From positions 1 to 33,497 of IMG/VR virus record IMGVR_UViG_3300037264_001193: a stretch of DNA of 33,497 bases; one strand, written 5' to 3'. Below the pieces are notes generated by a model that searched no databases, was not told the DNA's origin, and was given only the letters and a program-made list of their open reading frames with translations. Source of the stretch: a virus. The position numbers and the translations under genes were made by a program. Shown here in pieces: positions 16,402 through 19,753 of the stretch (positions are counted from its first letter, which is position 1; each line of letters starts with the position of its first letter).

Positions 16402-17562
16402 ATGGCCGCACCCGAAGTCCTGATTGGGCAACGAGCACGAGTCCGAGTTCTCACGAAGACCCGAGGTCCGGTGATCCTCGGAATGAACGACACGGTCGAA
16501 CTGGCGCCGGGTCTGTCGCAGAAGGCCGTCTCTGCGGTCCAGGCGCTCGATCCCCAGGCGATCTACAACGCGCACGGGGCGGGGACCGGCAAGATCAGCC
16601 CGACCGAGACGCAGGCGCTCGAGTTGTACGCGGCGCTTCAGGACATCGAGACGGCTCCGGGGACCACGCCTGCCGGGATCGTGAACGACCTGCGGAACCT
16701 AAAGCCGTTCTCGATCCTCGTCGAGAAGATCGCCGACGACAAGGACGCGCCGTTCGGGTTCATGTTCGCCTACGGATGCCTACCGTCGAACGTCTCGGCA
16801 CCTATGCCGGCGATGGACGCGATGAAGCGGGACATTCCGTTCGGGTTCAAGAGGCTCGACGACCTGCGCGGATTCGGCGCGAGGTATCTGCGCTGCCGTC
16901 CGACGGCTTCGGCCTTTCTCGCGACGCCTTCGATCCCGGCGCTGACGCAGGGCGCGGGTACGTCGCCTTTCGCAATCGGGGATATCGTGTACGTCCGAAC
17001 CGCGATCTGCGATGAGGTCAAGGCGTTTGGAGATGCCGCTCCGACGGCGGCGAATCACCTGACGCGCGCCTGTCAGGAAGTGTCCGAACTCGTCGCGGTT
17101 GCGGCGAACAAGATCACCGTCACGGTCGCAGCTGTCGGGGCCGGAACGAGCCTTGCGGTCTACGTCGGCCGCGCCTCGGGCGTCGAGACCTTCTACGGCT
17201 GGATCGCTGCGGTCGGTACGACCATCGACATCACGGGCTGGAACGATCCCTCGGGACCGCGCCCCCCGTACCACAACAACCTCGCGGCGTACACGACCCC
17301 GGAAGATGCGGTGTTCGGAGCGGTCGGAGCTTTCAGCAATGCCGTTGATCTCACGGCGAACGGCGGGGCGCTTCCGATCCCGTTGATCCCGAGCGGTCTG
17401 CCCTACGTCGCGGTCCTTAAAAACGGCGTCCGGCAGCCGGAGGATCAGGCGGTTTCGAGTGGGTTCGGATTCTCGGACGATCTGAAAACGTTCTACCTCG
17501 CGGTCGCGCCGGATCAGGCCGACGTGTGGGAGCTCGTCATGCCCGTCGCGCCGGGCGCGTAA
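16402..17562 (+). CDS. Major tail tube protein
   Basis: The 386-residue protein starts at an ATG with TAGGAGG seven bases upstream, the second-best type of leader in the window, as expected for the abundant tube subunit. It comes right before the frameshifting chaperone gene and tape measure, a conserved order. N-terminal residues 1-170 are strand-rich with Gly/Pro turns. Residues 205-290 look like an added immunoglobulin-like or lectin-like domain (KITVTVAAVGAGTSLAVYVG, FYGWIAAVGTTIDITGWNDP). The C-terminus (QADVWELVMPVAPGA) is another strand. The protein is longer than the common 150-250, consistent with an extra surface domain. Confidence 0.78.
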   Translation: MAAPEVLIGQRARVRVLTKTRGPVILGMNDTVELAPGLSQKAVSAVQALDPQAIYNAHGAGTGKISPTETQALELYAALQDIETAPGTTPAGIVNDLRNLKPFSILVEKIADDKDAPFGFMFAYGCLPSNVSAPMPAMDAMKRDIPFGFKRLDDLRGFGARYLRCRPTASAFLATPSIPALTQGAGTSPFAIGDIVYVRTAICDEVKAFGDAAPTAANHLTRACQEVSELVAVAANKITVTVAAVGAGTSLAVYVGRASGVETFYGWIAAVGTTIDITGWNDPSGPRPPYHNNLAAYTTPEDAVFGAVGAFSNAVDLTANGGALPIPLIPSGLPYVAVLKNGVRQPEDQAVSSGFGFSDDLKTFYLAVAPDQADVWELVMPVAPGA

Positions 17563-17571
17563 GGGGGCGGC

Positions 17572-18063
17572 ATGGATTCCAACGAGACGAACGCGATGCG
17601 GAAGCTGCTCCGAGAACCGTTCGCGTACTCTGGGCCGAAGTCTCCGGGGTTGGCTCGTGCGCTGCGTTTGCGTGCGGAGGAAACGACCGACGCTGACGAA
17701 AAGGCGGCGTTCGCGAAGCGGGCCGAGGAACTCGAAGCGGAACGGATCGAGGGCGAGATCTGGCCTTTGACGTTCCGCGAGCGATGCTCCGTGGATCTCA
17801 TGCTCGCGGAAGCGGCGGCGGTGGCAGACGAGGAGGGATCCTCGCCTCGGATCAAGAACGCCTACCTCGGAGCTACTACCGTTCGCCTTCACGCGAGGGC
17901 GTGTCTCCGTGTCGCAGGGACGAAGGGGAAGGTCCACGTCCTGACGCACAATGAGGCGCAATCGCTGGACGTCGAAGCGGCGACAGACATCTACGGGAAG
18001 TTCGTCGAGGCGTTCGTTTTGACGGAGAACGAAAGCCCAAAAGGACCGACTCTCCGGTCCTGA
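17572..18063 (+). CDS. Tail assembly chaperone, unshifted form (lambda gpG-like)
   Basis: The 163-residue protein starts at an ATG and ends with TGA 18061-18063. It lies between the tube and tape-measure genes, as gpG does. It is a charged helical protein (FAKRAEELEAERIEGEIWPL, ERCSVDLMLAEAAAVADEEG). The tail chaperone coats the tape measure while the tube polymerises. Its codons 155-157 contain the slip site C CCA AAA, after which a -1 reading gives a C-terminal extension listed separately. The two forms in a fixed ratio are needed in lambda; the same is inferred here. Confidence 0.8.
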   Translation: MDSNETNAMRKLLREPFAYSGPKSPGLARALRLRAEETTDADEKAAFAKRAEELEAERIEGEIWPLTFRERCSVDLMLAEAAAVADEEGSSPRIKNAYLGATTVRLHARACLRVAGTKGKVHVLTHNEAQSLDVEAATDIYGKFVEAFVLTENESPKGPTLRS

Positions 18064-18248
18064 TCTTCGCGCGGAATATCGCCGCGGTCGGGAAGGAGTA
18101 CGGGATGCCGCTCGCGGGAGGGTCAGTGCTGGACCTGCCGAACGCTTGGGTTCAGCTGGCGTTCGCTGGGTTCGCGGCGCAGGCGAATCCGATGGCCGCG
18201 CCCCCGCCTCCGGGGACGTTCCGCTTCGTCGCGACGGGTGACGCCTGA
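17572..18248 (+). CDS. Tail assembly chaperone, -1 frameshift fusion (lambda gpGT-like)
   Basis: This joins 17572-18042 in frame to 18042-18248 after a -1 slip, giving 157 + 68 = 225 residues. The extension starts RTDSPVLIFARNIAAVGKEY, contains LDLPNAWVQLAFAGFAAQA, and ends at TGA 18246-18248, which overlaps the tape-measure start as TGATG. Without the slip this 183-base stretch would be an unexplained gap with no start in a good context. In known phages the extension (T domain) contacts the tape measure. The extended frame has no stop in that span, supporting the reading. Confidence 0.75.
18036..18060 (+). promoter_or_regulatory. Programmed -1 frameshift signal: slippery heptamer and hairpin
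   Basis: The bases CCCAAAA (18036-18042) fit X XXY YYZ with zero-frame codons AGC CCA AAA, so both tRNAs can re-pair after a one-base backward slip. Directly after it, GGACCG (18043-18048) pairs with CGGTCC (18055-18060) around a 6-base loop. The hairpin is closer to the slip site than the usual 5-9 bases, so its role is unsure; the heptamer alone may suffice. Confidence 0.75.
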
Positions 18249-19753
18249 TGGGTGCGCGCGAGGTCGTCCTCTCGTACCGCTCGGCGTTCGATGCGAGCGG
18301 GGCGCAATCGGCGTTCAAGGCTAACGAGGCGGTCGCGGGGAGCGTCCAGCGGTACGGGTCAACGGTCAAGGGTGCGTCGGACCGGATGATCGACTTCGAG
18401 GTCAAGGAGCGTCGCGTCGAGGCGGTGACGAAGAACGTCTCGGCCGCTCTTTTCACGGCGGCGCAGAGCGGAAGCGCGATGCAAGGCGGGATGAGGGCCG
18501 GAGCTGCGGCGCTCGACTTCCTCGGGAACGCGGCCGGGTCGCTGGCCGGTCCGGTTGGGATCGCGATCCTGCTCGCCTCTAATCTGGCGTCCGCGTTCCT
18601 GGCGGTGAAGGCGAACGCGACCGAGGCGAAGGAGAAGGTCGCGGAGGTCATGTCGGCGTCCGAGGCGTACTCGATCGCTCTCGACGCACTCTCGAAGTCT
18701 GGAAGGGCCGAGACCGATTCGACGGTCCAGCGATTGAAGGCGAAGCAGCGCGAGGTCGAAACGGCATCGCAGATCAACCGACTCGCGGAGTCGGGGTCCG
18801 AGGCGATCCGGCGCTACAACGAGGCCGAGGCCGCGCGTCTGGACGTCTCGAACAAGCTGACCGAGGCCAAGGATCGCCTGCGACGACTCACGGAATACGA
18901 GCGGGCCGCGTACCCGCAACAGGCCGTCCAGATCGAAGAGTCGATTCGACGGCTGACGGACGAACTCGGAAAGGCCGCGTCGAAGACGACCGCGCTCGAA
19001 GCGCAGACGCGATCACACACCGAGGCGTCGAAGGGCGTCGCGTCGGCGTTCGAGAATCAGGAAGGCGCGCTCGCGGGGGTCATCGAGGCCGAGGACACTT
19101 GGCAGACTGCCCGGCAGCGCAACCTCGATCTCGGATGGGAGACGATGGCGCTCGAGTACCGAATCGCGTTGCAGCGCGAGATGCTCTCGGCCGGGGAAAC
19201 CGCAAGGATCCAGAAAGAGCGGATGTTGCGGATCGCGGCGGCGCAGAATGTTGCGTCGATCGCCGGAAGCCTCGCGTCGTTCATGGAGGCGACCGGATCG
19301 AAGTCGTTCGGGGTGATGAAGGCGCTTCGCTACGGCGAGGCGGTCATCAACACGGCGGCTGGCGTCATGCAGGCGTTAGGTACGATCGCCCCGCCCTACA
19401 GCTACATCGCGGCTGCAGCTACGGCGGCGGCAGGCGCGGTCCAGATCGCCACGATCGCATCTACGAATCCAGGGGCGGGATCCGTTACTACACCGAGCAT
19501 GGGCGGTGGCGGTGGCGGCGGATTCCCGACCGGAGGGGGCGGCGATGGTCCCGGCCCGTTCACGCTCGGCGCCGGGGGAGCTCCCGGAGGCTCGATGGCT
19601 GGCGCCACGGTCACGGTCACGATCGAGTCGCTCGTGTTCCAGGGACTCGACCCCGACTCCGTTCCGGCCGGGCAGATGCGCCGATTCGTGCGACGCTTCG
19701 CCGAGATGCTTTCCTTCGAGTTCAACGCGCTCGGAAACCGGATCGGGAGGTAG
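18248..19753 (+). CDS. Tape measure protein
   Basis: The 501-residue protein starts at an ATG overlapping the frameshift-product stop. It is largely helical and has a hydrophobic N-terminal part, AGSLAGPVGIAILLASNLAS (about 98-117), then long coiled-coil (about 130-270). The segment FGVMKALRYGEAVINTAAGV, followed by APPYSYIAAAATAAAGAVQI (378-397), is the characteristic C-terminal tape-measure motif. A Gly-rich linker and a beta tail close the protein. By the rule of about 1.5 angstrom per residue, a tail near 75 nm is expected. It is short for a siphophage. No lysozyme or peptidase domain was seen. Confidence 0.85.
   Translation: MGAREVVLSYRSAFDASGAQSAFKANEAVAGSVQRYGSTVKGASDRMIDFEVKERRVEAVTKNVSAALFTAAQSGSAMQGGMRAGAAALDFLGNAAGSLAGPVGIAILLASNLASAFLAVKANATEAKEKVAEVMSASEAYSIALDALSKSGRAETDSTVQRLKAKQREVETASQINRLAESGSEAIRRYNEAEAARLDVSNKLTEAKDRLRRLTEYERAAYPQQAVQIEESIRRLTDELGKAASKTTALEAQTRSHTEASKGVASAFENQEGALAGVIEAEDTWQTARQRNLDLGWETMALEYRIALQREMLSAGETARIQKERMLRIAAAQNVASIAGSLASFMEATGSKSFGVMKALRYGEAVINTAAGVMQALGTIAPPYSYIAAAATAAAGAVQIATIASTNPGAGSVTTPSMGGGGGGGFPTGGGGDGPGPFTLGAGGAPGGSMAGATVTVTIESLVFQGLDPDSVPAGQMRRFVRRFAEMLSFEFNALGNRIGR

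Follow-up and report, generated by a model that had tools for sequence, protein, structure and literature searches.

A conserved slippery heptamer and a probable programmed −1 frameshift in a sequence-divergent family of phage tail assembly chaperones

The chaperone gene, its neighbours and its predicted fold

We analyzed a window of 33,497 nucleotides from an uncultured phage, i.e., positions 1 to 33,497 of IMG/VR virus record IMGVR_UViG_3300037264_001193. The record is siphovirus-like and GC-rich (about 67%), with a GpA-type terminase and with Mu F-like and Mu gpT-like head genes. An ORF on the plus strand (17572–18063) encodes a product of 163 residues that we assign as a gpG-like tail assembly chaperone, based on the fold and on homologous proteins encoded by five further, distinct viral genomes. 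The other parts of this locus lie on the same strand. Upstream of the ORF is a putative major tail (tube) protein gene (16402–17562), assigned from its position and conserved in four relatives; it had no informative family match, and its structure model was of low confidence. Directly downstream, the gene at 18248–19753 encodes the tail length tape measure protein (501 residues), as shown by its matches to two tape-measure families of PHROGs (E-values 3.3e-8 and 5.6e-8). The order of chaperone and tape measure is common to the five relatives. In one of them, L012, the ORF after the chaperone had no PHROGs match, yet it is collinear.

Pfam and PHROGs gave no match naming a chaperone for any of the six family members. 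Tail assembly chaperones share little sequence among themselves (PMC5009743), we hence do not regard the lack of a known sequence family as a defining property. The zero-frame product was modeled with AlphaFold2 at a pLDDT of 88.9, and the PDB entry closest to it in fold was 2ob9, the tail assembly chaperone of HK97, with a Z of 7.2 for 102 of 107 residues; the next match reached 3.7. This is a distant likeness, with a Z-score under 8, an rmsd of 6.6 and 6% identity, and the window protein, at 163 residues, is longer than its HK97 counterpart. Because Foldseek gave the HK97 match no significance, we take the fold as supporting but not decisive. In the viral structure library BFVD, several structure matches were named tail assembly chaperone. 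The modeled fold thus lends some support, independent of gene order, to the assignment of the ORF as encoding a tail assembly chaperone.

The heptamer and the −1 frame in the window and in distant relatives

Close to the 3′ end of the ORF lies the heptamer CCCAAAA (18036–18042). The zero-frame codons around it are AGC CCA AAA GGA, i.e., its phase is C CCA AAA, and the first-pass annotation had correctly read it as a zero-frame X XXY YYZ site. This in-phase heptamer is significantly more than chance in the window genome. Among 16 hand-picked genes of the window (6,055 codons) it was the sole in-phase X XXY YYZ sequence with Y being A or T, and in an automatic gene set of 10,064 codons it was one of three, corresponding to P ~0.007 for the 36-codon overlap. 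Annotated phage frameshift sites show all four bases at each position according to PRFect (PMC10885494). In the literature searched, no phage paper turned up that links CCCAAAA to a tail-gene frameshift, which is weak evidence.

The −1 frame is free of stops from 17955 to the TGA at 18246–18248. Past the heptamer it forms an extension of 68 residues (18043–18248), the candidate gpT-like tail, in agreement with the length given earlier. Its TGA shares one base with the tape-measure ATG at 18248, and the frame thus does end at the tape-measure start, as had been noted. Openness of the −1 frame was dropped as evidence: at 67% GC, 36% of random Markov sequences with the composition of the window have 61 open codons by chance, and so do 50% of the stretches of real window genes when read in a wrong frame. 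An open −1 frame hence means little here, and we therefore tested its conservation. The codon-position GC of the tail (18066–18245) is 0.72/0.57/0.85 in the −1 frame, and only in this frame does the stretch show the gene-like pattern of this phage.

Searched directly, the window chaperone and tape measure had no relatives in IMG/VR or among GenBank phages, portal and capsid-protein alignment searches yielded none in GTDB genomes, and capsid, chaperone and tape measure had no match in 50,697 GenBank phage records. Relatives were reached via the major capsid protein and via the tail gene. The chaperone family comprises six distinct viral genomes, i.e., the window, L002, L003, L008, L012 and L087. 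Over the stretch that was compared, L088 does not differ from L087, and it was not counted separately. A scan with the chaperone profile found no family members beyond these six. The five relatives' chaperones share 20–36% identity with that of the window; all are distant, and no close relatives were found in the collections searched.

In all six members, the homologous codon position has an X XXA AAA heptamer in phase, which is CCCAAAA in the window and L002, GGGAAAA in L003 and L012, and AAAAAAA in L008 and L087. L087 is AT-richer, and an in-phase heptamer is not rare there (chance about 0.23). In the five relatives, a conserved Phe-x-Leu-(Thr/Ser)-x-x-Glu motif precedes the heptamer. The −1 tail is likewise open and homologous in all five and ends at the tape-measure start. 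Conservation of heptamer and −1 frame, which the first-pass annotation had proposed as a check, hence extends to five of five relatives, none of which has a stop within the −1 tail; these relatives are distant ones.

Alignment of the window tail with that of L002 gave an E-value of 9e-8 in the −1 frame; in the two remaining frames it was 0.003 and 0.06. Tails of the close pair L003 and L012 match in every frame, as expected, and best in −1. A profile built from the other members recovered the window tail (E 1.4e-4) as the top non-training match among 9,644 ORFs. In the same leave-one-out test, the tail of L087, the most diverged member, was not recovered (E 4.1), and L002 was absent among the matches listed for its profile. 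The view that a shift would account for 18064–18247, a stretch otherwise without a gene, fits a tail that is homologous and coding-like in the −1 frame, and the −1 extension corrects the annotation of this gap.

A layout of the same kind, i.e., an ORF, an in-phase heptamer, a −1 ORF and a long tape-measure-like ORF, was seen in many capsid-protein relatives that have different tail genes (L017, L020, L023, L025, L026, L032, L038, L045, L046, L058, L061–L064, L066 and L070; further L072, L074, L075, L078–L081 and L084). These candidates come from a mechanical scan only, their heptamers are mostly A-rich, and a few are likely to be chance hits.

Possible stimulatory elements around the heptamer

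We folded the 60 nt past the heptamer and found unusually stable predicted hairpins in four of the six members, starting 4–6 nt downstream; hairpin length in the family is 45–60 nt, and the hairpins of L008 and L012 are the strongest. Mean z was −3.14 at the family site and near zero to −0.9 in the flanks. For 22 candidate sites that the same scan found in other tail families, the mean was −0.42. The window hairpin (18046–18103), a possible 3′ stimulator, has a z of about −1.9 (−1.99, −1.85) and is the weakest or weakest but one in the family, with an outer-stem p of 0.17. The combined hairpin p of 2e-6 is optimistic, since the statistic was designed after the folds had been seen. In the six-member alignment there is no single column-consistent stem, as pairing in the window and L002 is shifted by about five columns versus the other four members. 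Covariation was therefore counted on these four only: their common stem has 96% pairing and two double-sided changes, a result equalled by 36 of 500 shuffles. Both arms often encode Gly-Ala (GGCGCC, self-complementary), coding may hence explain part of the hairpin.

On the 5′ side, the Shine-Dalgarno-like GGAG at 18024–18027, 8 nt upstream of the heptamer, is a possible stimulator with an anti-Shine-Dalgarno pairing energy of −6.6 kcal/mol (p 0.10 alone). Most members have such a stretch; the combined p for the family of 2e-4 is confounded by conserved Glu/Asp codons. Neither the downstream hairpin nor the upstream stretch had been part of the first-pass annotation. It is plausible for the family, and possible for the window, that they carry a three-part stimulated signal like that of E. 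coli dnaX, which consists of a Shine-Dalgarno sequence, the heptamer A AAA AAG and a hairpin, with the family hairpin placed 4–6 nt downstream of the heptamer. The P-site-to-hairpin distance of 11–12 nt in dnaX (PMC7282821) would fit this layout. In contrast, dnaX is another gene with another purpose, its shift yields the shorter product, and in the window family both stimulators are predictions.

Two further hairpins were observed. One is a perfect 6-bp hairpin, GGACCG/CGGTCC, at 18043–18060, which abuts the heptamer and reaches the zero-frame stop; it is disfavored as a stimulator because no spacer separates it from the heptamer. The other follows a CCCAAAA in another tail family and is strong (L075:16535-16601, z −3.05).

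Two probable chaperone forms by proposed ribosomal slippage, and competing explanations

We consider it very likely that a programmed −1 frameshift on CCCAAAA gives two forms of the chaperone. Most ribosomes would stop at the TGA at 18061 and release the short form of 163 residues. A minority would slip back by one base on C CCA AAA: tRNA-Pro would re-pair from CCA to CCC, and tRNA-Lys would exchange one AAA for another. These ribosomes would add the −1 tail, which leads to a fusion of about 224 residues, with the predicted junction ...SPKRTDSPV..., ending at the start of the tape-measure gene. With less certainty, the hairpin 4–6 nt downstream and the upstream Shine-Dalgarno-like stretch may raise the slip rate, as in E. 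coli dnaX.

Alternatively, the tail could be a separate small protein with its own start in the −1 frame at ATG 18105, where AAGGAG-TACGGG-ATG (18093–18107) is a good ribosome-binding-site match with AAGGAG 6 nt upstream of the ATG. This ATG, 69 nt past the heptamer, is the first ATG/GTG/TTG of the window −1 frame, and a protein starting there would lack the first third of the tail, a conserved part that can be aligned across the six members. Moreover, L003, L008 and L012 have no start codon with such spacing at the homologous place, and in L003 and L008 there is no ATG/GTG/TTG ahead of the conserved tail core at all; the −1 frame of L008 becomes open only 3 nt ahead of the heptamer and has none for 99 nt after it. 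Due to the lost third and the missing equivalents, independent initiation does not account for the conserved tail, it would also leave the conserved heptamer unexplained, and we regard it as very improbable. The AAGGAG at 18093 is also part of the predicted hairpin, in which it belongs to the 3′ arm. The window could additionally make an internal product of 47 residues from ATG 18105. Stop-and-restart was rejected because there is no start codon near the TGA at 18061.

As the window comes from a metagenome, one real ORF might have been split by an indel that arose in assembly or sequencing. The two-frame layout is found, however, in five other distinct genomes from other records and with three different heptamers; an error would not be repeated in these genomes precisely at the slippery site, and we exclude it as the cause with very little remaining doubt. 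Hardly any weight falls on slippage of RNA polymerase instead of the ribosome as the source of the fusion: L008 and L087 do have A7 runs, but the run is no longer than A4 in the window, L002, L003 and L012, and the runs at which bacterial transcriptional slippage has been described comprise about 9 A or T (PMC5009743). That the zero-frame chaperone acts alone and −1 ORF and heptamer merely coincide would agree with the frequency of long open frames at 67% GC. Against such a coincidence stand the frame-specific conservation of the tail and the in-phase heptamer in six of six members, which make it extremely unlikely.

Ribosomal slippage on the heptamer would place the locus beside lambda G/GT. 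The first-pass annotation had drawn this parallel and had noted the different heptamer. The layout supports the former: as in lambda, a small gene adjoins the tape measure, an X XXA AAZ site for a −1 slip lies near its 3′ end, and the −1 tail finishes at the tape-measure start. The heptamers do differ, being G GGA AAG in lambda and C CCA AAA in the window, but this is unremarkable given that three occur within the six-member family. Further differences to lambda are that the window sequence is unrelated at the level tested, with no Pfam or PHROGs match, and that the family has a predicted 3′ hairpin, whereas some tailed-phage shifts seem to need no stimulators (Atkins et al. 2016, PMC5009743). 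Systems of this class make the two products in a fixed proportion and require the fusion for building the tail. In the lambda model of Xu, Hendrix and Duda, the tape measure protein is bound by the short form and by that part of the fusion which both forms share, and recruitment of the tube protein falls to the −1 tail (PMC5009743). By analogy, the shared part of the window chaperone would coat the tape measure protein, and its −1 extension would recruit the tail tube subunit. We hence place the window protein in the lambda G/GT class as a new member of divergent sequence, for which we infer the shift itself.

In lambda-like phages, the fusion share is a few per cent. A three-part signal that raises this share far above the lambda-like level, and thereby sets a different ratio of short form to fusion in the tails, is a tentative and rather doubtful proposal.

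Judged from its conservation among distant genomes, the programmed −1 signal is real and well conserved in a new, divergent tail-chaperone family. Frameshifting in the tail chaperone is a well-known phage strategy and a rule for most phages with long tails, which now extends to a chaperone family of novel sequence that Pfam and PHROGs do not contain. If the hairpin stimulates slippage, the family would lend itself to testing what sets the proportion of short and fused chaperone, and also whether this ratio follows tail length.
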